Shown here piece by piece: positions 31,101-53,735 of a stretch of DNA of 64,000 bases. A program made the position numbers and the translations under genes. Each line of letters starts with the position of its first letter. Position 1 is the first letter of the stretch. Under the pieces are notes generated by a model. That model did not search any database. It saw only the letters and a list, made by a program, of their open reading frames with translations, and had not been told where the DNA came from. Origin of the DNA: Cyclina sinensis (taxonomy: Eukaryota > Mollusca > Bivalvia > Venerida > Veneridae); assembly GCA_012932295.1 (NCBI GenBank), contig JAAONU010000009.1:2864197-2928196 (forward strand). Direction: 5' to 3'.

Positions 31101-32090
31101 TCACGTACAGTATTGCTGGTATGTAAATGTAACTCAGAAGCGTATATGCAAAACATGATTCTATAAGTAGTATGTAGACATTACTAAGATGTCGATATGT
31201 AAGCTTTAATCAATCGATTGTGTAAAAATCTTAGTTGTAGATAGGTAAACATATATAAAACGGCGCTCAGTAGGCTACATGCAAGCATAATTTAATGGAT
31301 GGTATGTTAATATAACTTAGCAGAAGATATGCAAGTATGATTCAATTGGTGTAGGTTTATCACTGTAAGTGACATATTATTAATAAGTGATGCTTGGTAT
31401 GTAAATGTAACTCAGTAGGCGATATACAAACATGTTTCAATAAATGATATGTAAATATAACTAAATAGGCGATATGTAACATTAAAATAATAAGTACGTA
31501 AATTTAGCTCTGTGGGCGATATGTAAGTATGATTCAATGAATGTTAATATGTAAATATAACTTAGTAGGCGGGTTTTTAGAACGATCAAATGGATTGTAT
31601 GAAAATAGAACTCGGAAGGCGATATGTAAGTATTGTGCAATAGACAGTATGTAAAAATAATCAAGTAGGCGTATGTTTCACTTGTATAATTTAATTTTAG
31701 AAGGTAGTATGTATTATGCATTTATTATGCATAAGGTATGGAAGTAAAGTAATTCAAGATAGTGATGTAAAAACGATATTGTAATGATGTCACTAAATTG
31801 TTTTAAACATAACGTCATATATCATTGTATTTATTTTAGCCGGTGACGCTAACAGTGATTTTACCATTGGAGCCAGCACCGGTGTGATAACTGTCAACAC
31901 AGGAAAGGCACTTGACGCCAGTACTACTGCAGGATACGCCTTACAGGTTGAGGCTGCGGATGATGACGGTACACCTCTCACTGGAACTACAACTGTTTTC
32001 GTTCTTGTGGGCTCATTTTCGGGCGCCTCTTCGCTTGTTGCTGGCATTGCAATGACTCTATTAGTAGCCTTCTTAACAATGTTACATTAA
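25169..32090 (+). CDS. Small secreted, probably GPI-anchored protein with two cadherin repeats (five exons)
   Basis: Five exons join in one frame to 248 residues: 25169-25220, 27948-28197, 30503-30627, 31050-31118 and 31840-32090 (stop TAA at 32088). Every intron is GT-AG, with donors such as GTAAGTG and GTAAGTTC. Residues 1-17 are a signal peptide (MKTLIPLLALACVMRIG). Cadherin repeat 1 spans about 27-125 with LDYE at 88-91, VADDG at 102-106 and the calcium/linker motif DVNEAP at 120-125. Repeat 2 spans about 126-222 with ATDQDSG at 151-157, TGVITV at 179-184 and AADDDG at 204-209. A small-residue stretch GSFSGASS (223-230) and a terminal hydrophobic segment (231-247) with no cytoplasmic tail fit a GPI-anchor signal. 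It is likely a cell-surface or shed calcium-dependent adhesion module, far shorter than classical cadherins. It has no catenin-binding tail. No gene name is assigned. Decayed paralogue exons lie at 53.9-54.8 kb. Confidence 0.88.
25221..27947 (+). other. Intron 1 of the two-cadherin gene
   Basis: Starts GTAAGTGAAA and ends TTTTCTACAG, phase 1. It is mostly AT-rich. It contains tRNA-like fragments: one inverted near 25553-25600 (CTACCCTTGGACCACGGTG) and one direct at about 26965-27045 (GTGGCTTAGTGGTGTAAATGG then GGGTTCGAATCC). No other gene was recognised inside it. Confidence 0.7.
26965..27045 (+). repeat. tRNA-like SINE fragment in intron 1
   Basis: TGTGGCTTAGTGGTGTAAATGG resembles a D-arm/A box, and GGGTTCGAATCCAC about 40 bases later resembles a T-arm/B box. 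The acceptor ends do not pair, so this is a tRNA-derived repeat remnant and not a tRNA gene. A related copy is at about 45468-45545. Confidence 0.5.
28306..28700 (+). repeat. Dispersed ACAAGAGGGC-type repeat in intron 2
   Basis: Begins AACAAGAGGGCAATTATAGCCCTATTTCGATCACCTGAG, with GAGGGC and GCCCT facing each other. This head is typical of a repeat abundant in bivalve introns. The interior has units with GATCTCATTTGACCC and TTTTGACCAAGTTCAATGA. It lies within intron 2 of the cadherin gene. Confidence 0.6.
28884..29010 (+). pseudogene. Second reverse transcriptase fragment (intron 2)
   Basis: The plus strand reads ISQLFRFSRACNGVKNFNER and NLCMTEK, then shifts frame to a KQEYRYYK-like continuation. 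The DNA closely matches the 3' part of the RT remnant at 14.07-14.12 kb (TTTCACAGCT..TTCGCTTTTCTAGAGCTTGTAAC). It is a dead fragment of the same element family lodged in a host intron. Confidence 0.65.
31119..31720 (+). repeat. ~50-bp minisatellite filling intron 4 from the splice donor onward
   Basis: Units contain GGTATGTAAATGTAACTCAG and TAGGCGATATGTAAGTATG. Landmarks occur near 31130, 31266, 31313, 31410, 31459, 31506, 31559, 31610 and 31658, with a period close to 50 bp in the right half. The first unit starts exactly at the exon 4 donor. The 20 bases from the donor recur unchanged at 31389-31408. Confidence 0.75.
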
Positions 32091-33424: not shown

Positions 33425-33707
33425 ACCGGCCCGCCTAATTCAATCAGGCATTAGATTGTCATTCTTGACGATCCCGGTTCGGTCCCCATTAGTGCCAGCT
33501 AAATTTCTCTGTGATTATTGATCTCAGACATTGCGTCAATAGGTCATTTGTCCCTCACCTCTGAAACAAGTCAGGAAGGAGTCAGTAACTTGCGGACTGG
33601 TGAGATACCAAGGAACTCTGGTTAGGTGTACAGACCGGGGGATATGACCTTAGCTGTTAAAACTGGCGTTAAACCCCAATAAACAAAGCTAAACTAAACC
33701 ATTTTTT
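33425..33707 (+). mobile_element. tRNA-derived SINE, copy a, with 8-bp target duplication
   Basis: A tRNA-like head (CCGGCCCGCCTAATTCAATC.. then GATCCCGGTTCGGTCCCCA) is followed by a body with GATCTCAGACATTGCGTC, CACCTCTGAAACAAGTCAGG and GTTAAAACTGGCGTTAAACC, ending CCCAATAAACAAA. It is flanked by ATGGATTT at 33417-33424 and 33708-33715. Copies b (34.5 kb, inverted) and c (56.65 kb) share head, body and tail. Confidence 0.88.
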
Positions 33708-34524
33708 ATGGATTTGTGTAAGATATCGTAGTAAAATGAGAAAGATAGGCACCACCCATACAGTGGTAGCAATCTGCATATTTCTTTGAATAAACGCCCA
33801 AATGTACTGTCACTTCGCCCAAAAGCACCTATCTTTCATTTTCTGATAATTAAAAATAGCGTTGCAAAAACAATATACTGCTGTACTTGACCAACTTCAG
33901 AAATTATTGCAATATAACGCGAAAACCAGCAATCTTTATAAACCACATTCCAAAATTGAGAATCATTGTCCGCTGTTTAAACCCATTCGTTACTCTACCT
34001 CTGTTCTTAAGTGTAATGGTTCCTGAAATCCCTCACTGCATTTCCTTTAGAACTTGCCTCGGTGAGGAAAAGAAAGGCAAATGGGCAGATTCGAAGAAAA
34101 GATGCCGACTCTCAACTTTGAAAGCTTGTTCTCTCCTACCGGTATGATTTTTTCTCTCTGTTTGGGTGGGCATTCTAACTAATGTCGATTGTGAAATGTC
34201 AGATCACAGTACAATAAATAATACGGTGTAATAAGTCAGTCGTAAAAAAGTAAGAAAAGCCAGCAACAAAATAAAAAAAGCAATAAGATTTTTTACAACA
34301 GATTATAAGTAAAGTAATACATTACGATAACTAAAAGAAGTAACTGAAGCAGTTTCTTCCGGTATCCAAATATCAGGTATCAAATATATATATAAACTGA
34401 CCCCAGCTGAATAAACGTAGTCGTAGTATACTATGTTTTGAAGATTTGATTCAACTGTAATAAAAGATTAAAGAAAATTCTAAGTAACTTGACAGAAATG
34501 TACGATGGGTACTTTTTATTTTGG

Positions 34525-34806
34525 TTTAATTGGTTTATTTGGGGTTTAACGCCAGTTTAACAGCTAAGGTAATATCCTGGCGGTCAGTCCACCTTACAAG
34601 TGTTCCTGGGTATCCAACCAGTTAAATAAGCTAACAAGTTAATTTCCCCGCAAGTGACTGACAACTTTCCCACTTGCTTCAGAGGTGAGTGAAAATGACC
34701 TATAGATCAATAATCATGGAGAAATTTTGCCGGCCCAGATGGGAATTGAACCCGGATCGTCAAGATTGACAATCTGAAGCTCTACCGACTGAGCTAGACG
34801 GGCCGG
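34525..34806 (-). mobile_element. tRNA-derived SINE, copy b, interrupted by Ginger1
   Basis: On the minus strand the head reads CCGGCCCGTCTAGCTCAG with GGTAGAGC (A box) and CCGGGTTCAATTCCC (B box). The body and the tail GGCGTTAAACCCCAAATAAA follow. The downstream target duplication TTTTATTTTGG is at 34514-34524. Its partner lies 13 kb away at 47699-47709, just beyond CCGGCACG at 47691-47698, which is the missing 5' end of the SINE. Ginger1 therefore entered at the CCGG in this SINE's tRNA-like head. Confidence 0.88.
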
Positions 34807-34869
34807 TGTAACGTTGTAAAGTGACCCCCATAGAATAATGACCCCCCGGTCATTATTTTATATAAAATA
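34803..34869 (+). repeat. Ginger1 target duplication CCGG and left TIR
   Basis: CCGG at 34803-34806, then TIR 34807-34869. All 63 bases match the inverted right TIR, and the next base differs. The TIR contains GACCCCCCGGTCATT, itself a small palindrome. Further GGTCAT/ATGACC palindromes follow to about 34985 (for example TATGACTGGGGGGTCATTAT). Confidence 0.93.
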
Positions 34870-35989
34870 TTGACTCCGCGGTCATTATATTATGACTGGG
34901 GGGTCATTATATTATGACTCCTCACACGTAGAAAAATGACCCCTCACGTAGAAATGTGACCCCCTATAGAATAAGGACCCCCCAATCCAAACCTTGACCT
35001 AACCTATCTAAGGTACACTTACACAACATAATTATCTTCATCCATAGACATCGGAGGAGTGATGGCACCCGTCCGTGCATGCGTCCATACTGCACGTTTT
35101 TTTTGACCGCAGTTAGATGGAATTGATCCAAGCTTCAGGGATTACCACTACCGATGCCTATTTGTGTGGAAAGAAAAAATGGTTAAAGTCTCCGACCGAG
35201 AATCACTTGCCCCTCACCGTTGTGAGTTCGACGCCTACCAGGGTCGTGTATGGGTGACAGGCATACAAACTGTGCGCTGCTCAGTTTATCATTTAAAACA
35301 TAGGCGATGGACTGCATAGGAACGTTCCATCAACAAAATACGCAACTACTTGTTGTAATTTACGGCCTGTTTGAATATCAATCATCAAAAATATTTATAA
35401 TCACAGAACTAGCTAGTTTTCAGGGGGCGAGGGTGGCTGGATTTCAATCTAGTATCGTTGGACTTCTTACCAGAACTCGTCTAATCCTGATCTGATGTAA
35501 CATACTTCGATAGCTTCCTCGCCTGGGAATCGAATCTGGGCAACTGGATTAGGAGTCAACTATATAAACCTCTCTGCGATTGAAATCAAATAATTATTAA
35601 TTATACAAGCAGAATCACTGTAAGTGCACTGTAAGTGACAAGTGTTTGTTAGTGGTTTGAATCATTTTCGTAGTCATCAAAGTTGTATAGTGATTAAACG
35701 TCCCACACAGTTAAACTAATGGAACTAGCAATGATAAATAACTTAAAAATATTATCCCTTTTTTCTTTTCATGACCATTCGGAAAGTGGTTTTAGAAATC
35801 ATTTAGCACAAAAAGGATAAGCAATTCATGCAAAAGATCTGAGTTACAGGTTAATTACAGCAACCTCTTATCATCATAAATTTTCTTTCTTCCCCAGGAC
35901 TGTGTACCATTGGAACAACCTACCACTTACTGTTGCCCTCCTCCCTACCCCTGAGCAGTTCAGTGCAGCTATATCTAGCATTGAACATG

Positions 35990-36970
35990 TCTCGCCTTAG
36001 TTATACAGCCCCCTGATTTTTGTCGAGCCAGCTTGCGGTGAGCTCGACTTTGTCGCCACTTTTGGCAGTTTGGTTCGGTGTATGTGCGTACGTCCGTCCG
36101 TCCGGATTTGTCCGGCCTATATCTCGCTCAGTTTTTGAAGGAATTCAAAATAACTTGAGATATATGTTTACCTTAATGAGAAGACGTGTCGCGCACAACA
36201 CCCAGATCCGCTCGTCAAAGGTCAAGGTCACACTTAAGGGTCGGCGCAAAATCCGTGTCTGGAGCATATCTTCTATATGGATGGAAGGATTTTAATATAA
36301 TTTGGCATAAATGTGCTCCATAGCAAGGCGGTGTGTCGCGCGAAAAATTTAGGTCTCTGCGTCAAAGGTCAAGGTCACACTTAGAGGTCAAATAATCCGG
36401 ATTTGTCCGGCCTATATCTCGCTCATTTTTTGAAGGAATTCAAGATTAACTTGAGATATATTTTAACCTTAATGAGAAGACGTGTCGCGCACAACACCCA
36501 GATCCGCTCGTCAAAGGTCAAGGTCACACTTGGAGTCGGCGCAAAATCCGTGTCCGGAGCATAACTTCTATATGGATGGAGGGATTTTAATATAATTTGA
36601 CATAAATGTTCTCCATGGCAAGGCGGTGTGTCGCGCGAAAAATTTAGGTCTCTGTGGCAAAGGTCAAGGTCACACTTAGAGGTCAAATGTCAAATAACAA
36701 GTTCAAGGTTACATAGACCTTAAAACTGAAAACGGTTTCCGCTCAATAACTTAATTATTGTTCAACCTTCAGCTGCCAAACCTGATAGGATGATCACCCA
36801 TATTGAGTAAATGACCCCTATGGTTTTTGGGGTCACAATATCAAAGGTCAAGGTCATTATCATTCTTTCATCTTCACAAATGTCCATTATGAATCTTTCT
36901 GTGAAAATTTAAACCTACAAAGCGGGCTCGACATTCTGCCCGTGGGCATGCAGAATGTATTTCTAGTTAA
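35990..36970 (+). repeat. Dispersed GTCGAGCC repeat inside Ginger1
   Basis: The head TTGTCGAGCCAGCTTGCGGTGAGCTCGAC and tail GCGGGCTCGACATTCTGCCC face each other. After a GTCCGTCCG tract there are two direct units of 295 bp (from 36101 and 36396) starting TCCGGATTTGTCCGGCC and containing GTCAAAGGTCAAGGTCACAC. It lies downstream of the transposase gene and is a later passenger. Confidence 0.75.
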
Positions 36971-37074
36971 CCCTTTTAAACGTTCTTTTAAATCTTTCTA
37001 AACTACTCTTTAAACCTTCTTGCGATTTTGACGCGCAACCATGTCTACGTCCTCGGGGGTGTTTGACATTACCG

Positions 37075-37125
37075 GAAGACAGACAGACAGACGGACGGAC
37101 GGACAAACGGACAGACGGACGGACA
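37075..37125. repeat. GACA/GACG tetranucleotide tract
   Basis: AGACAGACAGACAGACGGAC and continuing GGAC units. It is typical of the ends of several bivalve repeat families. Confidence 0.8.
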
Positions 37126-37532
37126 TACTTCTAATTTTGACCTAACATGACTCAGTTTTAAACTCACTCGAATTAACTAGCATTCTGACCAAATTTTATA
37201 AAGATTCGTATAAAAATGTGGCCTCTAGAGTGCTTTTACTTTTGTGTGAATATAGATACGGGTCTTGGTAGCATTATCGTTGAATTTGCTAGATCTGATT
37301 TTATCACATGACATCGCTTGTTTTTCATGTAATATCATTACGAATTTCTTTATATTTAACACGTGTAATATAACTTTGACGTGACTCATTTCCGCCAATA
37401 CATTCCATATAGAAAAAAGGCGTGAAAAGCGTGCGTATTCATAGCGTTAAAAAGGGTTTATTTTATATGTTTTATTTTTATGTTTTAAGTCATGTGATAA
37501 AACGAATCTCTCATTCGTTGTCAAAAAATATA

Positions 37533-37622
37533 ATATTTTATTAAACTCGTTCAAGAAAATGTTATAAAGCTCGCCCGAGGCTCGCTATATAACATTTTCT
37601 TGAGCTCGTTTAATAAAATCTT
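37533..37622. repeat. Long hairpin inside Ginger1
   Basis: TATTTTATTAAACTCGTTCA.. and ..TGAGCTCGTTTAATAAAATCTT are near-perfect inverted arms of about 33 bases around a GC-richer loop containing AAGCTCGCCCGAGGCTCGCT, itself a palindrome. A shorter relative is at 5.4 kb. Confidence 0.75.
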
Positions 37623-37941
37623 ATATCATATGACAACTCATGTGAGATCCTATAAATCCGTGGTTCGGGAGTGTTGTTCGGTATATAATAAGGACAATTT
37701 CATAAACGAAAGGACTTTTTATTTAAAACTGTATGGAATATAGAGGCGAATCCAACAAAACGTCCCAGGGTGTTGACCTGTGCTTTGGTAAAACTACATA
37801 TCACATCTGTTTATATCTTAAGCTATTATTTTAGTTAGTAAATCACACAAGGTATATTTAGCACGCATTGTTATTCTCATCAGATGCAATATTTTAAACC
37901 AAATTTAGCATAAATTGTATCGTTCTCCACTGATTTGTTGA

Positions 37942-37947
37942 TTTATT
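37942..37947 (-). terminator. Polyadenylation signal of the Ginger1 transposase
   Basis: AATAAA on the minus strand, 17 bases after the transposase stop codon (TGA, 37967-37965). The position fits a short 3' leader; use is inferred. Confidence 0.5.
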
Positions 37948-37964
37948 CTTGCACGTGTCACTTA

Positions 37965-40900
37965 TCAATTAAGTTTGTTTTCGACATCGCTCCAGTCACA
38001 TACTATATTGAAAATATTTGCATCCACCTCGTCAGATAACCCACGCAGCCCTTCTACATTGTAAGGCGTGTTAGTAAAAGCCTTCACATATACAGTCTTT
38101 ACACTTTTGTCAAGTTTTAATAGCAAGGCTTCGTCTGCGTAACAATTCACTAAAGCAGCATCTAATAGGTCATCACTTATAAGGGCGTGGTATCTTTCTG
38201 GAATGTGGTTCCGAATTCGTTTGTATGGCTTTCTTGAGAACTCTTCGCCATCTACCTCTAGCACCGGGACAAAATGGTCGCTGGTATTCTGAATGTACAC
38301 TGCTCGACCCCTTAAATTACCACCAATGAGGCCTAACGGTTTGTATTCTAACCAACGCCACTGTTCCTTACTGCCATACTGTGAATAAACATACACAACG
38401 CTTCTGGTGAGAGTTGCAAAAGCAAATATCTCCACTTCTGTTCCCCAAGTGTTTTCGGAGGCCATCATTGACGTGTCTAGATATCTGGAAACCGAATCAC
38501 GTGTAATGCCTTTCATTAGAGTTTCGTTTTCTTTCATGAAGTCAACAATCGCTTGCCTTATCAAGCTATGGTGTGTTTGTACGCCAAAAACTAAATAACT
38601 GAATGTTCTAAACAAACAATTGCCATCCCCACGCATGTTTACAGTTTTAGTAGGTTTGGCGTCTCGTCGTATATATTTGTCTGGACCGGATGCATACGTG
38701 TTTTTGACTGCCGACTTAAATACACTCGAGATTTGTTCCTGCCATTCTTGATTAGATGGTCTGAATTGAAATGGTTGGGGTTCTTGATTAGTAGATTCTG
38801 TAGAATTGGTAGGTTGTGTTGCAACATCTTCTCGCGATACTCTTCTCTTTTTTGGAGGGAGATTGCAGTCGTCAGATTTATCGTTTCTTTTTGCAGGTCT
38901 TTCAAACGCTTTCTCGTTTGCTTGGGTTCCTGTTTCTTTGTTTATTAGACTGTGGTCATCTTTTGGACCTTCAGTTGGTTGCTTTTCTGTGTTATCTGTA
39001 GCAGCATCGTCATTACTCTGCCTATAGCGATTCAGTCTGTTCCCACTTACACTTGTTTTCATTCCTACTAGGAAATAAGTGCCTTTTCTAGTTACTTTTG
39101 TTATTTTGAATGGTCCTTTCCATTTAAGACCCAATTTCCCTCCTTTTCTCGTCAATTTTCTGGTGTTATGAAGAAGGACTTGGTCGCCGACTTCAAAACC
39201 TGCTGTATCGTCTTTAGGTAGTGAAGAATCGTAATATTTCTTCTGCTTCGATTGTGCCGTTTTAATATTGGACGATGCTTCTTTTCTGTTGCACGAAAGT
39301 TTAATGAACGAGTCTATTCTTTCCTTTAGTGACAATTCAGAGTCTTGGTTATCATCCGATTGCATTGCTAAGTCTAGTTCTATTGGTAAGCGTGCGTGCC
39401 TTCCAAACACAAGATAGAATGGTGTTTGTTTCGTCGACTCATGTTTAGACGTTCTATAGGCAAACAGTACGTATGGTAACTTAATGTCCCAATTTTTCTG
39501 CGACAAATCTACACTGTGCACAAGCATATCGCACAAAGTCCTGTTAAATCTTTCAGTATGTCCTCCTGTTTGTGGGTGATATGCTGATGCAATTCTATGT
39601 TCTATCCCAAACTGCTTGCAAAACTTTTCATTCAAGTCGTTGCAGAATTCTCTCCCCTGATCCGTTATTAATACGCTGGGGCAACCATGTGTCGTGACAA
39701 ACTTCGTGAATACTGATAGTACAGTTTCAGATGACTTGTCTGGAATCCCTTCTGCCTCTACCCATTTTGTCAAATATTCTGTTATAACGACAATGAACTT
39801 GTTTCCTGAAATGTATAAATGTAAAGCATTTTACAATACTTATTTTAATCAACGATGCATTGTCAAAGACAATACTAGTATATCCCCAGCCGATAGATGT
39901 TTCTTTTCAAGTTTGAATTTGCATAGAAACTAGAATTTCATTCTGCATGTCTACGGGCCAGCATCGCAGTTTTAAGATGTTGTTGCATAAAAATTCCCTC
40001 ATGCATATAGGATATCCTCTAGAAAAGCACTTCTAATGACCTCTGTTATCTTTACCTTTAACTGGAGACCTGGTTGATGCGTGCGACACTAGATCTCATG
40101 GTAGTTAACATTTGTGTGAAGTTATAGTAAAAAAAATCTCTTCATGCAGTTACCAGATATGCCCTGCACAAGCATTTATCAGTGATCTCTAAGAAGACCT
40201 TTACCTTTGACCCATAAACCCAGTTCATGCGCGCAGAACTAGAACTCATAGAGGTGATCACTTGTGTGAAGTTTTTACAGAAATTCCTCCATTTTCATTC
40301 AAATTGGAGTTATGGTCCGTAAAAATCAGGACAGACACATGCACGCACATATAGCGAACATCAAAAACTGGCGACTAAGGGTCGAGTTCACCGAAGGTGG
40401 GCTCGACAAAAATGGAAGGAAAATAAAAAAAGCACTACTCTGTTTCTTAATAATATCTTTCTCAAGTTTACAGTTGATATGTTCTATACAAACTACTTTA
40501 AGAAAAAATTCCCCCATTCATTTCGCTTGAAAATTGAAAATTGCTAGTCAAATGCTATAACTCTTAAAAAAATTAATTGAAATCTGGCCAATAATCTTCA
40601 AGAAATAGCCCGGAAACAAAACTTGGACGGACGGACAGACGGGACAGACGGACGGAGGGCAATCCTATCTCGGTTACACCGGTAGGGGAGTTCCATAAAA
40701 AAATTCAATGTACTTTTGGAGATATAGTGGGATCCAGTTAGGTTCAAGATGTGTTGAATGTTTTTTAAAGCAGACAGACAGACGGACGCAAAAACGAAAA
40801 AAGAAATAAATAAAAAGACGTGCATAATCTCCATATTGCCCTTTATCACTATTCCAAGTTTCATGAAAAAATTCTAAGTATTTTGGAGATATCGCGGGAT

Positions 40901-43900
40901 CCAGATTTTCGGACGGACGGACAGACGGACGGACGGACAGACTGACGGAGGGCATTCCTATAGTCCTCTCCGGTTACACCGGTAGGGGACTAATAAGCCT
41001 GATCATATTTGACTGACAGGTCATAAACAGCTGGTACATTGACATATCAGCTGGCAACCGTCGACGGCGTTTAAGTTACAGAACTATCAAAAATTAATTT
41101 AATAAACTATGGTTTTCCCGTAAAAATACAGAACTATCAAAATTTAATTTAATAAACTATGGTTTTCCCGTAAAAATACGACATATATTTACAGTGCTTA
41201 AGAAGAAATGCAGTTGCTTTCGCACATGGCCCTGTTTCACATGGGCGGTCGCTTTGCTTGTAACTAATCGTAAACTGCGTAAAATCTATTTCAGTTTACC
41301 ACCACTCAACAGGTGCATTACCGATACGTCTCTACCGCTCCAGTAACTAAAAATCTCAAGTAAAACTGACTACAATGTATTACAACGTTTCAAATGAGTA
41401 CGGTGGTACAGAGGTGAAATACCCAGTAGGTTGTTTTCCACCATCATTTAGCATTAACTTCACCGTCAAACCACGTGAAGACTGGACATGGTGATTTTAT
41501 CAATATAAGTATATTGTAACTTAGCAAACTGATCCTTATAGAAATATGCAGTGCAACCGTTGGTACTATGTGAAGGGCGTTTTCTATGTGTAGGGGAGTT
41601 GTAAAATTATGACCCCCAGTCACAGTTTATGACCGGGGGCACAATATTATGACTCTGCCTCACACAGAAAATAACCCTCATATAGTGGTTTTGTGTGAGA
41701 CTCATTTTCCTATGTGTGGAGGAGTCGTAATATTATGACCCCCGGTCACAGTATTATGACCCCCCGGTCATAGTATTATGACCCCCGGTCATAGTATTAT
41801 TACGGGGGTCATAACATTATTATGCTCTGTGGTGCCGCATAGCGGTGTTGCCGCATAAAGGTGGTCGGACTCGTTTATGCGGTGATTTTCAACGCATATA
41901 GAGGGTGACCACCTTTATGCGGCGACATGCCACGCATAAAACAACTAGATATGTGTCCATAGGACACTGGTGCCCCCCCCCCCCTACATGATGCTTAGTA
42001 ACATGTTATATCATTCGACCTTAAGCGCATGTCAAGTTTGTCTTAAAAAGGTTGTTGTGCTCAAGTATGAAGAAAACTAATAAATAAATAGCAAAGTTTT
42101 AGTCACTTTTGGGAAATTTCAAACTTTAAAGTCCCATAAGGCTTTTATTTTTATGTTAAAAATGGGTTTAACATTTGTCTAAATAGGGAATGTCAACAAT
42201 AAAACGTAAAGAAACACTCACTTTTAATTATCCTACATGTAAACATATAGTAAAAAGAATTAAGGGAGGTAATAAAATATTTTTTTATCCTTATAATGCT
42301 TATTGGATATACAAATCTGTTAAAAAGCTTTAAGAAAACAGTTATTTCTTATATAATTTAACTTGAAAAATATATAATTTCTTTAGTATACTTTAGTCAT
42401 AAAAAATAGTGGCAGCCACTCCAAACACAAAGGCCTTATGAGGCTTTAAATTTGAAGGTCAAGGTCATTCAGAGGCCAAGGTTATCTTCATATTAATTTT
42501 TTGAAGGTCCAGTTCAAAGCTTTGTTGTGTTCAAATATGAAATTAATAAGTATATTAATACCAAAATTATTACTTCACAAATATTTCCTTATATAATGTA
42601 TAGTGAATAAAACAACAAAGGGCCATAATTCTGCTAAGACTAAACGCAGCAAAAACTCCTGTCTTTACGATCATTAACATATTAAGGTTGATCATCTGTG
42701 AAAGTTTGAACAAAATCCCCCAAGCGGTGTAGGAGGAGTTGCGTTCACAATTTTTTTTTCCATATATAATGTATAGTGAATAAAACATCAAAAGGCCATA
42801 ATTTTGCTAAAACCAGTCACAGCCAAAATTCCTGTCTTTACGATCATCTACACATTGAGGTTGATCATCTGTGAAAGTTTGAACAAAATCCACCAAGCGG
42901 TGTAGGAGAAGATGCGTTCACAATTTTTTTCCCTATATAATGTATAGTGAATAAAACAACATGCCCCCACTTAAGATGGAATGACCTTCGGAACTTAAGA
43001 CTTTTTCAGAGGAAGAGAGAGTGAGTACATAAAACTAGATCCTGGTCTGGTTGAAACTTCATAGAAGTAACTAGTAATTATCGTTTATGTTTTAATGGGT
43101 TTCTTTATGCGGCGAAAGGGGGCCTTTCTGCCGCCTAAACATGCCCTCTTTATGCGTTGAAAATCGCCGAATAAACATTTTTGACCATCTTTATGCAGCA
43201 ACACCGCTATGCGGCACCACAATGCCCCGACATATATTGTCTACGAGTCAAAGTCACCAGGGTCTACCAAAGCAGCCCAACAAACCGACAGACAAAACTT
43301 ACCCTGATAAGAGGTTTCTAGAGGACCTATAATGTCCATGCCCACTTGCTTGAAAGCCTCGGTGGGAACTTTGATAGGTCGCAGTGGCTTCTTTGCTTTC
43401 TTCAGGTTCACCTTTCTTTGACAGTTGTCGCAGTTCTGTATAAACGTGTGTACATCTTCGAAACATCCTTTCCAGTAAAACCTAGTCGAAATCTTTTCCC
43501 ATCTGAAACAAAGCAAACATAACTATTAGTCCAGATAAGTTACCAACATACAGTCAACCTTGCCTTAGCGACTCACTGATTTAGACCACTTCCTGCCGTA
43601 TACGACCCTGTTTACGACCGCCTGACGTAAAAAAAATCTATATAAAGTCACTGACTGAATTAAAAGACTCCCTGTCTGACGCCACAAACGACCGTAATGT
43701 TTGCACCCCGTGATGATAATATGGCTTAATTAAACGATTTTCATGCATTTTTCAGTCATTAACATGTTTTAGCGCTTCGGATCTTGGATTTCTTACCAGC
43801 GTGTTTACTTTACTATGTGCTATGGCAAAAATGTTTATTTTTCTCTTTTATTATCTGAGTTAAGTCAATTTAACCATAACTTCTAATATGTCCAAAATTG

Positions 43901-46900
43901 GACGATCTGTGGATGCACGAGTGCATTTTATGTAATCCGTACGAACAACTTTTCTTGTGAGAAAATCGAATTAGAGCTACCAACCTAATTAAAATTTCGA
44001 AATTTCAAAATCCCTGCTCCTATTAGTATTACCAAACAATAATAAAATATGATGGAAATATAATCTCATATAAACCTATCCATTACCCGATGAATAAACG
44101 CGGGATTTGAAAAGCTGGCCATGGATGCACCTGAGACAAGAAAAACAGTTCAGGACAAGTGTATGATCTTTGAACCTTCCTATATGTATGCGCACGGGTT
44201 TGGATATTTAGATATCCTCAGTCCATGGTTTAAAGTTCGTAGCGGTAAGTAAAAGCGTGCAGATTCAAAGTATCTGTCTACCTTTCTCATGTCACAGTTA
44301 CGGATTGACAAATTCAGCACGTGGGGAACTGTTAACGAGGCCATGCCGAGTTGCCGCATGATTTTCTTTTCGAACCTGGTACATATGAAAGATACTTCTT
44401 GAATACCAGGAGCTAAGTAGAGTCATTTTTACTATTTCAAAAAAACCATCTACACTAGAGTTGGGTATCGCCCGGGGAAATGCATCACAATACTATCACG
44501 ATACTTGAAGCCTATATCGATACAGTATCGCAATATGTAAGCACTTGATGGAAAGATTTTGTTTTAGTTTTAGCAAGATTTTTTCGGGTCACCTCCATTT
44601 TATAAACTGTAAGTGTTGCCAAAGATCTGGTTTACCTATATCTGACCCCGTGTTTAATTAGAAAATTTCAGAATCAGAATCAACTGATCCCGATTTAGTT
44701 TCCATTGTTTCCTTAATTCAAAATTAAAGAAATTGAGTAAAGCACATTTCATATGCAATAAAAAATGGTAAAATACACTATTTTATACATATCTTTTTGC
44801 TTTCTCTAAATAAAATTTGTAGTAATAGCATAGAATACAAAAGCAGTTGGCTCAAAATATGGATCAATTTTAGGATCAGGATCAAAATTTGGATCAACTC
44901 AGAAAGGTAAATTCCTTCTTAATATATAAGGATTTAGTTACAAAATATATTTCATTCTGTGTCATTTAAGGTCTATTTGAATTTGCAAGAAATGATTATG
45001 ATATCTAAATAAACAATTGATATTTTGGAAATAAATATATTTGAATTTAGTTTGTGCAACTACATTAACATAAATACATAAATTAGTAATTATATTGTTT
45101 GAATTTTTTTTAGCTTCATTTACATGGGTTTTTCTATTAAATTTGACGCTAATTGGATTGCGAAAAATAGAGGAACTAAGTAGGAACAATAAAACAGCCA
45201 CCAAACTATATAATATTGCCTTGATTGGTCAATAGACAAAATTATTTTTCTTTATGTTCTTTTTATGCAAGTACAGTCCGTTAAAATTCAAATGAGAACG
45301 GTTATAAACAGCGAGTCCATGTTTAGGTATTGGGCAATTTTATTAACTTGATGCATTACCATAAATTTCATGGTTGAGTTGAAATCCAATACATGTTGTT
45401 CTAAATGTTCTAAATGACGATAGAATTATTAGAATTAGTTTTGAGTTTACATAAGCAACTTTCAATGACTGTGGCGTAGTGGTATAATGGAAGGACTGCG
45501 GAACACTATACATGTTATGTTCATGGGTTCGATCCTCATAAGTGCACAGATACAACCTTTTCCTTTTCGGCGGAATTCAAATACCTTCCTGGCATTCTTA
45601 TAGTTTACTTGGAGGATACTGTCTACTTATTATGTGTACTCGGAACTTATTTGAATTATACATGCAAAATCGAGATAAGTGAGGTTCTCGTGATTTAGAT
45701 TTTTACATAACATTACTAAATACAAACTGTGTAATTCTTTCCAAAAATGAAATAAAAAAAACTTCCTCACTTGAGGTTCGAACCCACAACCGCTATCGTC
45801 ATAGAACTGAACGATAACACTGGGCCAGCGACTCTATATGAGAAATTAATATCTGTAATTTCATTAAGTACAGAGCATTTTAGAGGACAATTTAGTTAAT
45901 GCTGACCGTTGGTCAGTGAATATGCTAATGCATCAAGTAAATAAAATACTTATCAAAACAATAACATTTACCTGGAGTCATCCGATCATTACACCCCTAT
46001 TTATTGACAATAAACTCGTATCTCATAATCAGCTTTTTTAAACGGACTATACTTTAATATTGCACACTGCATATCAAAATAAACCAGTATCATTTACTAT
46101 TGGCCTGAAAAGCGGACAATATATAGACAAAACACTTTATTTCAGTTTTATCTAATAATGGAATGATCCAAAGACCTGTTCACCTATATTATCAACTTTA
46201 AATAAAGTACCGTTATATATTCTTTACCTATTTCAGTATAATGGTTTTGTTAGCGAAAACCAAAATATTGCGTTCGGATCGTTCTCACAATATATTTACA
46301 GTTATTATAATCGAAAATTAATCATAACTGATACAAAGATCTAGAGCTTAATGTTAGTTTGTAAAACGACTCATCTGATACGCCTTATTTATACATACAT
46401 GACTGTTTTAAAGCATGAAATAACTTTGAGAGTATCCTCTGCCTGTCGGTTGTTCGCTCTCAGTGTCCGTGTCCGTCATAATCCGTACAAGTCTAATAAC
46501 AAGATAGTTGTCTCGTTATAACGAGATACTTAGTCGTTTTTACGAGATATTTATCTCGTTATTACGAGTTCAGTCACGTTTTTACGCTTTTGTTATTCGG
46601 CTTTCGTACTAATTTAAATAATCTTAAATGTCATATCTAACACAGGCTCACAGGAATCACAAGTTCCTTTTTGGTCATGATAATGAAATCATTATATCAA
46701 ACTTACGTTTTTGAAACTTCCAAATGTCCTCCGTGATCTGATGCATGCATGCTCTGAATGATGTCATCTGTCTTCCCTTTCTTAACAACTTGCAGACGTT
46801 TTGATGAGCTGGTTTTCTTATAATACAACCCGTCATCAAAAATAAAAGGTTTGCACTTTCTACGAAAATTCCTCTTTTTGTTCTTGTCTTTTACAGAAAC

Positions 46901-46958
46901 GGGATACTTCCCATTTTTTTACAAACTCTAGAACATCTGTGTAATCTTTCTCGTCCAT
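37965..46958 (-). CDS. Ginger1 transposase: DD35E integrase with GPF motif fused to OTU protease (three exons)
   Basis: The minus-strand exons are 46958-46707, 43502-43303 and 39805-37965, joined through GT-AG introns (donors GTAAGTTTGA and GTAAGTTTTG; acceptors TTTGTTTCAG and TACATTTCAG) in matching phase, about 763 codons. The start is the ATG at 46958; a stop lies just upstream in frame (47012-47010). In order: a YP-type N-terminal region; an HHCC zinc finger (His codons at 46747 and 46726, Cys at 43432 and 43423); and an integrase core with Asp at 43336, Asp at 39662 in TDQG and Glu at 39554 in HTERFN, with 35 residues between the last two. Then comes the GPF motif (39116-39108), a basic PPKKRR segment that could be a nuclear signal, and an OTU domain with D-G-N-C (38627-38616) and catalytic His in SDHF (38276). 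It should cut and paste the element by its TIRs; the OTU domain would remove ubiquitin. The only defect seen is seven A at 46914-46920 where six would keep frame. Confidence 0.9.
40610..40995. repeat. Pair of GGACGGACAGACGG / CGGTTACACCGGTAGGGGA repeats
   Basis: Two copies, at about 40622-40692 and 40911-40990, each with a GGAC/GACAGACGG tract, GGAGGGCA.TCCTAT and CGGTTACACCGGTAGGGGA. Between them are two related units with GGAGATAT.G.GGGATCCAG. This is a dispersed repeat nested in the transposase intron. Confidence 0.75.
41588..41827. repeat. Cluster of GACCCCCGGTCATAGTATTAT palindromes
   Basis: Several 21-22-base units of the form CCCCCGGTCATAGTATTATG run head to tail, preceded by TGTAGGGGAGTTGTAAAATTATGACC. 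The units match the ATGACCCCCCGGTCAT motif of the Ginger1 TIR and subterminal DNA. The TGTA..GTTGTAAA start resembles a diverged Ginger1 terminus. This may be a nested relic of a related non-autonomous element. Confidence 0.65.
41829..43220. mobile_element. Nested unclassified TIR element (1,392 bp)
   Basis: The left end GTGGTGCCGCATAGCGGTG.. and the right end ..CACCGCTATGCGGCACCAC are inverted over about 77 bases with roughly ten mismatches, both continuing to GATTTTCAACGCATA. The interior has a 171-173-bp tandem unit starting near 42592, 42765 and 42936 (TATAATGTATAGTGAATAAAAC) and no transposase. No target duplication was found adjacent to the ends. It sits 83 bases from a transposase splice donor without harming it. 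Confidence 0.75.
45468..45845. repeat. Two tRNA-like fragments in the first transposase intron
   Basis: One direct (45468-45545: TGTGGCGTAGTGGTATAATGG then CATGGGTTCGATCCTC) and one inverted (about 45770-45840, reading GGTTGTGGGTTCGAACC on the minus strand). Both show A-box-like and B-box-like segments but no paired acceptor stem. They are tRNA-derived SINE relics. Confidence 0.5.
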
Positions 46959-47627
46959 GCTGCAAGGTTGGACTGACTGCTTACCACAGACCTTTATATA
47001 TACACGCGTTTACGTAGAACTGCTTTCGGTGTCGCTGTCGTTTTCTTTGATGTTGAACGAGCGGCTTTTCTGAGGTAAATCAAAGGAACTATTTTTAGAA
47101 ATGATGCAGTCTGCATAAAACATAAAAAAACACCGCTCAGTGACATCATGGACTTTGATGTAAGTCATGGCACGAACAGTGAATTCTTAAATAGCTCCTC
47201 AAAGCCTTGCATTTTTAACACATTCGTTTTAAGCAATGCCTCCACGGTATGAACAAAGGCTATCTAACGTCAGATGAAGTAGAACAATGTTGTCTTTGAA
47301 GTTGAATCATATACAGCTACGTTAAAGCGACTTATGGATATTGTATTACAATGATGATAATTTAAATGAAATTCAAATGGAAGCAATTTTATATTTCATT
47401 TCAATAGATGTAGACACAGCAGCTTCTGCAGCAGTAACATGCAGCGGCTCCAGAAGAAAAAAACAACAACAACAACAACAAATATAAAAGCCATAGAAAC
47501 ACGACAGTGACTTGAATTGATATAGATATGTTAGTAACAGGCTAAGTGGGGGGGTCAATATTTTACAGATAAAATCGGGGGGTCATTATTTTAAAAGGGG
47601 AGTCAGTATTTTATAGAAAAGGGTCAT

Positions 47628-47694
47628 TATTTTATATAAAATAATGACCGGGGGGTCATTATTCTATGGGGGTCACTTTACAACGTTACACCGG
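47628..47694 (-). repeat. Ginger1 right TIR and target duplication CCGG
   Basis: TIR 47628-47690, the exact inverse of 34807-34869, followed by CCGG at 47691-47694. Inside it (about 47550-47627) are subterminal GGGGTCATTATTTT motifs mirroring those at the left end. They are candidates for transposase-binding sites. Confidence 0.93.
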
Positions 47695-47709: not shown

Positions 47710-47764
47710 CTGAGTATATAAGAAAATAGTTCCCAAAGAGATTCTCACATTAATTGTCTAAAAC

Positions 47765-50340
47765 AGTACTCAAGAAGCAGAGTAAAAAAAGCACAGCCAG
47801 ACTAAAAAGCACACAAAAATTAGGAACGCAACCAGAATAAAAAGGAGGGTAAAATTAGAAAACACACCGAGACTAAGAAGCGAGTAAAACTATAAAGCGC
47901 AGAAAGACTAAGAACCAGAGTAAAACTAGGAAGCGCAACCAGACTAAGAAGCAGACTAAAACTAGAAAACGCAGTCAGACTAAGAAGCACACTAAAACTA
48001 GAAAGCGCAGTCAGACTAAGAAGCAGACTAAAACTAGAAAGCGCAGCCAGACTAAGAAAAAGAGTAAAAAAAGAAAGCGCAGCCAGACTAAGAAATAGAG
48101 TAAAACAGAAAGCGCAGCCAGACTAAGAAGCAGATTAAAAAGTAGAAAGTGCAGCCAGACTAAGAAGCAGATTAAAAAGTAGAAAGCGCAGCCAGACTAA
48201 GAAGCAGATTAAAAAGAAGAAAGCGCAGCCAGACTAAGAAGCAGACTAAAAAGTAGAAAGCGCAGCCAGACTAAGAAGCAGATTAAAAATAGAAAGCGCA
48301 GCCAGACTAAGAAGAAGAGTAAAACTAGAAAGCGCAGCCAGACTAAGAAGCAGACTAAAAAGTAGAAAGCGCAGCCAGACTAAGCAGCAGACTAAAACGT
48401 AGAAAGCGCAGCCAGACTAAGAAGAAGAGTAAAACTAGAAAGCGCAGCCAGACTAAGAAGCAGATTAAAAAGTAGAAAGCGCAGCCAGACTAAGAAGCAG
48501 ATTAAAAAGTAGAAAGCGCAGCCAGACTAAGAAGCAGACTAAAATGTAGAAAGCGCAGCCAGACTAAGAAGCAGACTAAAAAGTAGAAAGCGAAGCCAGA
48601 CTAACAAGAAGAGTAAAACAGAAAGCACAACTAGACTAAGAAATAGAGTAAAACAGAAAGCGCAGCCAGACTAAGAAGCAGATTAAAAAGAAGAAAGCGC
48701 AGCCAGAATAAGAAGCAGACTAAATATAGAAAGCGCAGCCAGACTAAGAAGCAGATTAAAAAGAAGAAAGCGCAGCCAGACTAAGAAGCAGACTAAAAAG
48801 TAGAAAGCGCAGCCAGACTAAGAAGCAGACTAAAAAGAAGAAAGCGCAGCCAGACTAAGAAGCAGATTAAAAAGTAGAAAGCGCAGCCAGACTAAGAAGC
48901 AGATTAAAAAGTAGAAAGCGCAGCCAGACTAAGAAGCAGATTAAAAAGAAGAAAGCGCAGCCAGACTAAGAAGCAGATTAAAAAGTAGAAAGCGAGGCCA
49001 GACTAAGAAGCAGATTAAAAAGTAGAAAGCGCAGCCAGACTAAGAAGCAGACTAAAAAGTAGAAAGCGCAGCCAGACTAAGAAGCAGATTAAAAAGAAGA
49101 AAGCGCAGCCAGACTAAGAAGCAGACTAAAAAGTAGAAAGCGCAGCCAGACAAAGAAGCTGATTAAAAAGAAGAAAGCGCAGCCAGACTAAGAAGCAGAC
49201 TAAAAAGTAGAAAGCGCAGCCAGACTAAGAAGCAGATTAAAAAGAAGAAAGGGCAGCCAGACTAAGAAGCAGACTAAAAAGAAGAAAGCGCAGCCAGACT
49301 AAGAAGCAGATTAAAAAGTAGAAAGCGCAGCCAGACTAAGAAGCAGATTAAAAAGTAGAAAGCGCAGCCAGACTAAGAAGCAGATTGAAAAGAAGAAAGC
49401 GCAGCCAGACTAAGAAGCAGACTAAAAAGTAGAAAGCGCAGCCAGACTAAGAAGCAGACTAAAAAGTAGAAAGCGCAGCCAGACTAAGAAGCAGATTAAA
49501 AAGTAGAAAGCGCAGCCAGACTAAGAAGCAGATTAAAAAGTAGAAAGCGCAGCCAGACTAAGAAGCAGACTAAAAAGTAGAAAGCGCAGCCAGACTAAGA
49601 AGCAGATTAAAAAGTAGAAAGCGCAGCCAGACTAAGAAGCAGACTAAAAAGTAGAAAGCGCAGCCAGATTAAGAAGCAGATTAAAAAGTAGAAAGCGCTG
49701 CCAGACTAAGAAGCAGACTTAAAAGTAGAAAGCGCAGCCAGACTAAGAAGCAGATTAAAATGTAGAAAGCGCAGCCAGACTAAGAAGCAGATTAAAAAGA
49801 AGAAAGCGCAGCCAGACTAAGAAGCAGACTAAAAAGTAGAAAGCGCAGCCAGACTAAGAACCAGACTTAAAAGTAGAAAGCGCAGCCAGACTAAGAAGCA
49901 GATTAAAAAGTAGAAAGCGTAGCAAGACTAAGAAGCAGACTAAAAGTAGAAACCGCTGCCAGACTAAGAAGCAGACTTAAAAGTAGAAAACGCAGCCAGA
50001 CTAAGAAGCAGACTAAAAAGTAGAAAGCGCAGCCAGACTAAGAAGCAGACTAAAAAGTAGAAAGCACAGCCAGACTTAGAAGCAGATTAAAAAGTAGAAA
50101 GCGCAGCCAGACTAAGAAGCAGATTAAAAAGTAGAAAGCGCAGCCAGACTAAGAAGAAAAGTAAAACTAGAAAGCGCAGCCAGACTAAGAAGCAGATTAA
50201 AAAGTAGAAAGCGCAGCTATACTAACAAGAAGAGTAAAACTAGAAAGCGCAGCCAGACTAAGAGGCAGACTAAAACTAGAAAGCGCAGCCAGACTAAGAA
50301 GCAGATTAAAACAAGGAATCGCAGGCAGACTAAGAAGCAG
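47765..50340. repeat. Minisatellite array, left half: 37-bp units
   Basis: About 70 units of the form AAAGCGCAGCCAGACTAAG.. plus AAGCAGATTAAAAAGTAG, 37 bases each in the homogeneous middle. The left edge (47765-48100) is more diverged, as expected when unequal exchange homogenises the centre of an array. A 37-base period shifts frame each unit, so no long open frame exists here. Confidence 0.95.
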
Positions 50341-53300
50341 ATTAAAAAGAAGAAAGCGCAGCCAGACTAAGAAGCAGATTAAAACAAGTAATCGAAGGCA
50401 GACTAAGAAGCAGAGTAAAACAAGTAATCGCAGGCAGACTAAGAAGCAGAGTAAAACAAGGAAGCGCAGCCAGGCTAAGAAGCAGAGTAAAACAAGTAAT
50501 CGCAGGCAGACAAAGAAGCAGAGTAAAACAAGGAAGCGCAGCCAGACTAAGAAGCAGAGTAAAACAAGGAATCGCAGGCAGACAAAGAAGCAGAGTAAAA
50601 CAAGGAAGCGCAGCCAGGCTAAGAAGCAGAGTAAAACAAGGAATCGCAGGCAGACTAAGAAGCAGAGTAAAACAAGGAATCGCAGCCAGGCTAAGAAGCA
50701 GAGTAAAACAAGGAATCGCAGGCAGACAAAGAAGCAGAGTAAAACAAGGAAGCGCAGCCAGACTAAGAAGCAGAGTAAAACAAGGAAGCGCAGCCAGGCG
50801 AAGAAGCAGAGTAAAACAAGGAAGCGCAGCCAGACAAAGAAGCAGAGTAAAACAAGGAAGCGCAGCCAGACTAAGAAGCAGAGTAAAACAAGGAATTGCA
50901 GGCAGACTAAGAAGCAGAGTAAAACAAGGAAGCGCAGCCAGGCTAAGAAGCAGAGTAAAACAAGGAATCGCAGGCAGACTAAGAAGCAGAGTTAAACAAG
51001 GAAGCGCAGCCAGGCTAAGAAGCAGAGTAAAACAAGTAATCGCAGGCAGACAAAGAAGCAGAGTAAAACAAGGAAGCGCAGCCAGACTAAGAAGCAGAGT
51101 AAAACAAGGAATCGCAGGCAGACAAAGAAGCAGAGTAAAACAAGGAAGCGCAGCCAGACTAAGAAGCAGAGTAAAACAAGGAAGCGCAGCCAGGCGAAGA
51201 AGCAGAGTAAAACAAGGAAGCGCAGCCAGACAAAGAAGCAGAGTAAAACAAGGAAGCGCAGCCAGACTAAGAAGCAGAGTAAAACAAGGAATTGCAGGCA
51301 GACTAAGAAGCAGAGTAAAACAAGGAAGCGCAGCCAGGCTAAGAAACAGAGTAAAACAAGGAAATGCAGCAAGACTAAGAAGCAGAGTAAAACAAGGAAT
51401 CGCAGCCAGACTAAGAAGCAGAGTAAAACAAGGAATCGCAGGCAGACTAAGAAGCAGAGTAAAACAAGTAATTGCAGGCAGGCTAAGAAGCAGAGTAAAA
51501 CAAGAAATCGCAGCCAGACTAAGAAGCAGAGTAAAACAAGGAATCGCAGCTAGACTAAGAAGCAGAGTAAAACAAGGAATCGCAGGCAGCCTAAGAAGCA
51601 GAGTAAAACAAGGAATCGCAGGCAGGCTAAGAAGCAGAGTAAAACAAGGAATCGCAGCCAGACTAAGAAGCAGAGTAAAACAAGGAATCGCAGGCAGACT
51701 AAGAAGCAGATTAAAACAAGTAATCGCAGGCAGACTAAGAAGCAGAGTAAAACAAGGAAGCGCAGCCAGGCTAAGAAGCAGAGTAAAACAAGGAATCGCA
51801 GGCAGACTAAGAAGCAGAGTTAAACAAGGAAGCGCAGCCAGGCTAAGAAGCAGAGTAAAACAAGTAATCGCAGGCAGACAAAGAAGCAGAGTAAAACAAG
51901 GAAGCGCAGCCAGACTAAGAAGCAGAGTAAAACAAGGAATCGCAGGCAGACAAAGAAGCAGAGTAAAACAAGGAAGCGCAGCCAGACTAAGAAGCAGAGT
52001 AAAACAAGGAAGCGCAGCCAGGCGAAGAAGCAGAGTAAAACAAGGAAGCGCAGCCAGACAAAGAAGCAGAGTAAAACAAGGAAGCGCAGCCAGACTAAGA
52101 AGCAGAGTAAAACAAGGAATTGCAGGCAGACTAAGAAGCAGAGTAAAACAAGGAAGCGCAGCCAGGCTAAGAAGCAGAGTAAAACAAGGAATCGCAGGCA
52201 GACTAAGAAGCAGAGTTAAACAAGGAAGCGCAGCCAGGCTAAGAAGCAGAGTAAAACAAGTAATCGCAGGCAGACAAAGAAGCAGAGTAAAACAAGGAAG
52301 CGCAGCCAGACTAAGAAGCAGAGTAAAACAAGGAATCGCAGGCAGACAAAGAAGCAGAGTAAAACAAGGAAGCGCAGCCAGACTAAGAAGCAGAGTAAAA
52401 CAAGGAAGCGCAGCCAGGCGAAGAAGCAGAGTAAAACAAGGAAGCGCAGCCAGACAAAGAAGCAGAGTAAAACAAGGAAGCGCAGCCAGACTAAGAAGCA
52501 GAGTAAAACAAGGAATTGCAGGCAGACTAAGAAGCAGAGTAAAACAAGGAAGCGCAGCCAGGCTAAGAAACAGAGTAAAACAAGGAAATGCAGCAAGACT
52601 AAGAAGCAGAGTAAAACAAGGAATCGCAGCCAGACTAAGAAGCAGAGTAAAACAAGGAATCGCAGGCAGACTAAGAAGCAGAGTAAAACAAGTAATTGCA
52701 GGCAGGCTAAGAAGCAGAGTAAAACAAGAAATCGCAGCCAGACTAAGAAGCAGAGTAAAACAAGGAATCGCAGCTAGACTAAGAAGCAGAGTAAAACAAG
52801 GAATCGCAGGCAGCCTAAGAAGCAGAGTAAAACAAGGAATCGCAGGCAGGCTAAGAAGCAGAGTAAAACAAGGAATCGCAGCCAGACTAAGAAGCAGAGT
52901 AAAACAAGGAATCGCAGGCAGACTAAGAAGCAGATTAAAACAAGTAATCGCAGGCAGACTAAGAAGCAGAGTAAAACAAGGAAGCGCAGCCAGGCTAAGA
53001 AGCAGAGTAAAACAAGGAAATGCAGCAAGACTAAGAAGCAGAGTAAAACAAGTAATCGCAGGCAGACTAAGAAGCAGAGTAAAACAAGAAAGCGCAGCCA
53101 GGCTAAGAAGCAGAGTAAAACAAGGAAATGCAGCAAGACTAAGAAGCAGAGTAAAACAAGGAATCGCAGCAAGACAAAGAAGCAGAGTTAAACCAGGAAG
53201 CGCAGCCAGACTTAGAAGCAATGTAAAACAAAAACGCGCAGCCAGACTAAGAAGCAATGTAAAACAAGGAAGCGCAGCCAGACTAAGAAGCAATGTAAAA

Positions 53301-53653
53301 CAAGGAAGCGCAGCCAGACTAAGAAGCAGAGTTAAACTAGGACGCGCAGCCAGACTGAGAAGCAGAGTAGAACAAGGAATCGCAGCAAGACTAAGAAGCA
53401 ATGTAAAACAATGAAGCGCAGCCACACCAATAAGCAATATAAAACATGGAATTGCAGCCAGACTAAGAAGCAGAGTAAAACAAGGAATCGCAGCCAGACT
53501 AAGAAGCAGAGTTAAACAATGAATCGCAGCCAGGCTAAGAAGAAAAGTAAAACTAGGAAGCACAGCCAGACTAAGAAGCAGAGTAAAACTAGGAAACACA
53601 CCCAGACAAAGAAGCAGAGTTAAACTGGGAAGCCCAGCCAGACTAAGAAGCAG
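50341..53653. repeat. Minisatellite array, right half: 36-bp units with higher-order structure
   Basis: About 92 units of the form GAAGCGCAGCCAGACTAAG.. plus AAGCAGAGTAAAACAAG, exactly 36 bases each. Unit variants (GGCAGACAAAG, CCAGGCGAAG, AATTGCAGG and others) recur in fixed order: about 50690-51790 repeats at 51914-53014, an offset of 1,224 bp or 34 units. Further block offsets are 15, 23 and 11 units. Because 36 is divisible by three, four of the six frames stay open, including one of 1,133 codons on the minus strand. That frame contains no ATG and is not annotated as a gene. Units diverge toward the right edge (53210-53650). Confidence 0.95.
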
Positions 53654-53735
53654 AGATATACGCGCGCGCGCACACACACACACACGCGCACACACACGCA
53701 AACACACATACACACATACACACGCACGCACATTC
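53647..53735. repeat. CG/CA dinucleotide tract at the array end
   Basis: TATACGCGCGCGCGCACACACACACAC-type alternating purine-pyrimidine DNA, continuing as ACACGC and ACATAC variants. It abuts the last 36-bp unit. Confidence 0.9.

Follow-up and report, generated by a model that had tools for sequence, protein, structure and literature searches.

The window analysed here, a 64,000-nt stretch of the genome of the bivalve Cyclina sinensis, carries at positions 34803–47694 what is almost certainly a DNA transposon of the Ginger1 group. The element is about 12.9 kb long, with 12,884 bp between two copies of CCGG. The original prediction had described perfect 63-bp inverted ends that start with TGTAAC and have CCGG outside each, and this description proved exact to the coordinate (Table 1): the two terminal inverted repeats (TIRs) are exact reverse complements, 67 positions match when CCGG is counted, and the sequences diverge beyond that point. 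The founding description of Ginger1 by Bao, Kapitonov and Jurka in 2010 (PMC2836005) lists, in the passages drawn on here, TIRs of 40–270 bp, TGTNR ends, a CCGG/CCGT duplication and introns as traits of the group. The window element fits the end rule with TGTAA, its TIR falls inside the length range, and CCGG lies on both of its sides. The TIRs contain palindromic and tandem TGACC...GGTCA units, and it is plausible from their sequence that these are candidate binding sites for the transposase.

Table 1. Coordinates of the element and its predicted transposase gene within the window
Feature	Position	Strand	Basis or content
Left CCGG target-site duplication	34803..34806	.	sequence; single-copy empty sites of two sister insertions
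Left TIR, 63 bp, TGTAAC start	34807..34869	+	sequence
Exon 3	37965..39805	-	second D and E of DD35E, WKGPF, OTU domain, stop codon
Intron 2	39806..43302	-	GT-AG, about 3497 bp
Exon 2	43303..43502	-	CC half of H2C2 finger and first D
Intron 1	43503..46706	-	GT-AG, 3204 bp
Exon 1	46707..46958	-	YPYY-like stretch and HH half of finger; frameshifted in window copy
Right TIR, 63 bp	47628..47690	-	sequence
Right CCGG target-site duplication	47691..47694	.	sequence

Repeats adjoin the element on either side. About 70 bp from its right end a 36-bp unit begins to repeat in tandem over 5.9 kb (47764–53655), and in this array frames of up to about 1,100 aa are open on both strands because 36 is a multiple of three. 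The left end is adjoined by a dispersed repeat (33448–34805) with a tRNA-like end, called as tRNA-Asp, and the two extremities of this repeat, about 1.2 kb from each other, pair up as inverted copies. Farther to the left, the plus strand holds pieces of Cadherin at 27848–28198 and 31797–32087 (17.9 bits, below the cut-off, and 36.4 bits, above it), so the element may sit in or near a cadherin gene.

Pfam scores and residue reading agree with the predicted integrase-like gene bearing an HHCC finger, DD35E, a GPF motif and an OTU domain. The gene, of about 760 codons, lies on the minus strand in three predicted exons separated by two GT-AG introns. Exons were located by tblastn with the proteins P0003, P0008 and P0029 (exon 1 with P0008 at E 8e-9 and with P0029 at E 1.6e-6) and their borders were set by GT-AG signals, the acceptor boundary of exon 3 being placed by CAG and the start codon of exon 1 being a guess. 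In the transposase ORFs, Pfam OTU (PF02338) scored 38.2 bits (cut-off 23.3), rve 35.6 bits (cut-off 32.6) and Integrase_H2C2 (PF17921) 33.3 bits (cut-off 25.5), the last of these in exon 2 over the CC half of the finger; the HH half was placed in exon 1 via alignment to P0008. The second D and the E of DD35E are spaced by exactly 35 residues in exon 3, where the GPY/F motif reads, by eye, WKGPF. In exon 1, a YP...F...YY stretch that aligns with P0008 and P0029 was likewise recognized by eye, with no profile. The OTU Cys and His are both in place in exon 3, and we take them to be the catalytic residues.

As assembled, the enzyme gene is broken in the window copy: exon 1 is divided between two reading frames at a site where the copies on contigs C12 and C9 are open. 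Among the three copies in which exons 1 and 2 were read, the window is shifted in exon 1, C12 in exon 2 and one in neither. The frameshift of the window copy may have arisen in assembly. The original prediction of a complete transposon holds for the two ends, both of which are intact, and fails for the gene, frameshifted in exon 1 relative to C12 and C9.

The search for other copies by means of the element end, suggested with the original prediction, covered a 903-Mb assembly in 154 contigs and gave at least 65 matches to the 94-bp left end (40 of 87 candidates scored), one of which, on C9, is identical to the window across all 94 bases. Allowing up to two mismatches, the genome contains 68 occurrences of the first 20 bases of the end, versus 17 of a reversed-letter control. 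Among the 71 of 1545 exon 3 candidates that were scored, at least six copies show 98–100% protein identity, four of them with no stops and two with one or two, and older copies and fragments at about 69–82% nearly all contain stops. Eighteen copies are two-ended and share the same end sequence, namely five long ones (about 12.8–13.8 kb) and 13 short ones (about 1–4.6 kb). Sister copies stop at the same TGTAAC boundary, rather than at the differing boundaries that had been named as counter-evidence, and CCGG stands at both ends of each of the five long copies. On C12 the right CCGG of the long copy lies beyond an extra, truncated terminal sequence that follows the TIR (L066, G000:C12:8697647), as though part of the end had been duplicated.

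Over the main blocks, the window element is 98.2–99.1% identical in DNA to the C12 and C9 copies, whose intron 1 contains an extra stretch of about 308 bp that is absent from the window. The claim of recent movement fits both the perfect TIRs and this 98–99% identity to two other long copies. The window element was thus probably inserted recently, and, read from the sequences of its relatives, an old lineage may have become mobile again in recent times.

Of the 18 copies with two ends, 10 have CCGG as the left outer 4-mer and 15 as the right one, and nine have it at both; in the short copies an exact duplication is often absent, and both 4-mers are CCGG in four of the 13. CCGG is palindromic and could therefore have belonged to the inverted repeat, which would mean that the outer CCGG (or GCCGG) is no target-site duplication at all, and the bases farther out are themselves symmetrical, with G before the left 4-mer in 16 of 18 copies and C after the right 4-mer in 16 of 18. 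We regard this explanation as very improbable given the empty sites of two sister insertions, which have the same flanks and one 4-mer. The C9 insertion has two uninterrupted paralogous empty sites, 98% identical across the whole joined flank, and the C6 insertion lies inside a dispersed repeat with at least 38 uninterrupted relatives listed. At the junctions that were read (both for C9, four of the 38 for C6) there is a single 4-mer, CCGG in five cases and CCAG in one, from C6. For the C9 and C6 insertions these sites refute CCGG as part of the repeat, and since they hold one 4-mer, CCGG is read here as a target-site duplication. The joined flanks of the C12, C11 and C3 insertions returned no site among the 40 of 1148 candidates scored, from which their own places were also missing, so that this absence carries no weight. 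The check for empty sites was thus positive for C9 and C6, and for the window's own insertion none spanning both flanks appeared among the 40 of 1807 candidates scored: many of these are dispersed-repeat matches to the left flank that end at the junction or within 3 bp of it, one runs 14 bp past the junction, and the right flank is uncovered in all.

Comparison with the 45 CCGG sites that the rest of the window contains, where G precedes nine and C follows 11, indicates that the symmetrical flanking bases are in excess; in the 16 copies with independent flanks, G and C each occur in 14 (p about 7e-15 versus the window CCGG sites). This excess points to GCCGGC as the preferred target, and the alignment of insertion sites suggests that the Ginger1 target is wider than CCGG, being mostly this 6-bp palindrome. 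The founding text, as excerpted, gives the duplication as CCGG in 75% and CCGT/ACGG in 24% (PMC2836005).

The tRNA-like sequence at the left end, which ARAGORN calls as tRNA-Asp at 34729–34805, might also be taken to mean that the element targets tRNA genes. We consider this extremely unlikely and rejected it, as the tRNA-like sequence is part of a dispersed repeat and adjoins the element at only one of the 26 loci scanned (26 of 30 left-end loci, L016, L020, L022 and L023 having been left out as they overlap others). At a further locus, L024, a tRNA-Thr lies about 0.5 kb away from the element.

A degraded gypsy (Ty3-like) retrotransposon, with an integrase left over after loss of reverse transcriptase (RT) and long terminal repeats (LTRs), would account for the rve domain, and integrases of this genome about 40% identical to that of the window include RT-linked ones. 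We searched for the missing parts. Pfam detected neither an RT nor an RNase H family in the 44 of 60 ORFs (at least 75 aa, within 15 kb) that were scanned, the other 16 lying in or overlapping the 36-bp tandem array; the families present in these 44 were OTU, rve, rve_3, H2C2 and Cadherin. The window holds none of the 150 best RNase H matches of the genome (150 of 1904 candidates scored), and self-BLAST revealed no LTR pair within 15 kb among direct repeats of at least 80 bp. Outside the array, such repeats comprise two tandem duplications inside the element and one 99-bp pair 277 bp apart; one 236-bp direct pair (78%), the only one to flank the gene, lies 23 kb apart, outside the element's ends. 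The RT, RNase H or LTR that the original prediction had asked to be sought within 15 kb, and that would have spoken for a retrotransposon, was accordingly absent from the ORFs scanned and the self-BLAST. Together with the perfect inverted ends common to independent copies of a family, the CCGG duplication and the OTU tail, this leaves a degraded gypsy retrotransposon with hardly any probability, and we retain the assignment to Ginger1.

The integrase tree bears on the same question. From 46 integrase regions prepared (29 of 120 and 13 of 120 listed proteins, three loci and the window), 45 remained after the short P0159 was dropped. P0001 is the partner of the window at 100/99, further OTU proteins join them at 99/98 and 100/99, and 13 RT-linked integrases form a separate branch at 100/100, although a single search, with the thirteenth as its seed, supplied 12 of these 13, so that they represent one gypsy lineage and few gypsy clades; for this reason Athila/Tat and Cer1, placed near Ginger1 or having YPYY too according to portions of the founding paper (PMC2836005), are absent. 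The tree proposed with the original prediction therefore sets the window with OTU proteins and apart from RT-linked ones, in a sample that lacks sequences named Ginger1, GIN1 or GIN2. The accompanying concern about misannotation was a fair one: the database relative P0073 is named 'RNA-directed DNA polymerase', and a mollusc survey, in the text seen in part, took special steps to avoid confusion between Ginger and Gypsy (PMC10294476). Integrase-only matches need a check for inverted ends and a protease tail before they receive a gypsy label.

On the best tree of the 45 proteins, OTU and Ulp1 rows interleave with at least three changes (protease labels were precomputed for the P rows, while the window and L053 were scanned anew). 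Grouping all Ulp1 rows in one clade is rejected (AU p 0.000375), as is a clade uniting OTU and Ulp1 jointly (p 0.000213), the latter because integrase-only rows, possibly fragments, fall among them. This branching pattern is compatible with one protease fold having been exchanged repeatedly for another that does a related job. It is conceivable, if somewhat doubtful, that a protease able to remove ubiquitin or SUMO is required by Ginger1 transposases, and that one kind can stand in for another. Should this be true, then, together with the GCCGGC target, a role of the protease in integration or repair would become testable across one family.

In the mechanism that we propose, a transposase of the gypsy-integrase type would pair the two 63-bp inverted ends; it would have to be supplied by a sister copy, because the window gene is broken as assembled. 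The ends would be exposed as TGT...ACA and joined to the two strands of a GCCGGC target at positions 4 bp apart, and gap repair would then leave CCGG on each side. We infer that excision is performed by this same enzyme and that it binds the TIR palindromes. Cut-and-paste movement of Ginger1 comes from the literature, where the founding paper, in the passages at hand, describes the mechanism of excision as unknown and proposes that OTU and Ulp1 act in repair (PMC2836005). The OTU protease may remove ubiquitin around the transposition or repair complex.

What is already known is the Ginger1 type, and the window element represents no new class of system. The protein traits given in parts of the founding paper are YPYY, H2C2, DDE, GPY/F and a C-terminal OTU or Ulp1 (PMC2836005). 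With OTU-type Ginger1 as presented there, for instance the Aplysia element in Table 1 of that paper, the window element shares its ends, TIR length, CCGG and introns as well as H2C2, DDE, GPY/F, a YPYY-like stretch and the OTU tail. It differs from the Ginger1 elements of the same excerpts in measuring 12.9 kb, nearly twice the longest, against about 2.6–7 kb, a descriptive range of 2010 and no defining trait (PMC2836005); in having two introns of more than 3 kb each; and in a family target preference that extends to GCCGGC. The closest named relative, the uncharacterized protein LOC128550298 of Mercenaria mercenaria (P0003), also has rve, H2C2 and OTU and is 65% identical over 99% of exon 3, being known here as a protein only.

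Within the C. sinensis genome, an integrase-Ulp1 family (L053–L057) resembles the window in H2C2, rve and a cysteine protease tail of the ubiquitin family, and differs in having Ulp1 rather than OTU, a single open frame and a distant branch. At least five copies exist (L053–L057, L100; for example G000:C1:32536931) at 99.6–100% identity over about 3.7 kb, with an 867-aa frame without RT that has tandem repeats of about 383 bp in front of it; element ends, sought in L100, were not found. Elsewhere, L047 (G000:C9:14774462–14775340) has an open 327-aa frame without integrase that shares 39% identity with the OTU portion of the transposase and may represent either an OTU gene of the host or a fragment of some other element. 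Gypsy/Ty3 elements have the integrase domains in common with the window, as in L061 of the same genome (about 40% identical), but in L061 RT and RNase H lie in the integrase frame, whereas none was found in the window ORFs scanned.

Ginger in molluscs is already known from the Aplysia family (PMC2836005) and from a survey of mollusc genomes with 98 Ginger elements (PMC10294476), both cited from portions of the texts; this particular family was not found reported in the accessible parts of the open-licence literature, including PMC10294476, PMC6431247, PMC12863088 and PMC10045372. Relative to that partial literature, three features are new: the length of about 13 kb, a target wider than CCGG and protease tails that interleave on the tree. 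The locus is a clear example of a DNA transposon with a gypsy-type integrase, for which one assembly provides exact ends, a family of copies and sister empty sites. It extends the size of Ginger1 to about 13 kb and, as the insertion sites suggest, sharpens its target from CCGG to mostly GCCGGC.
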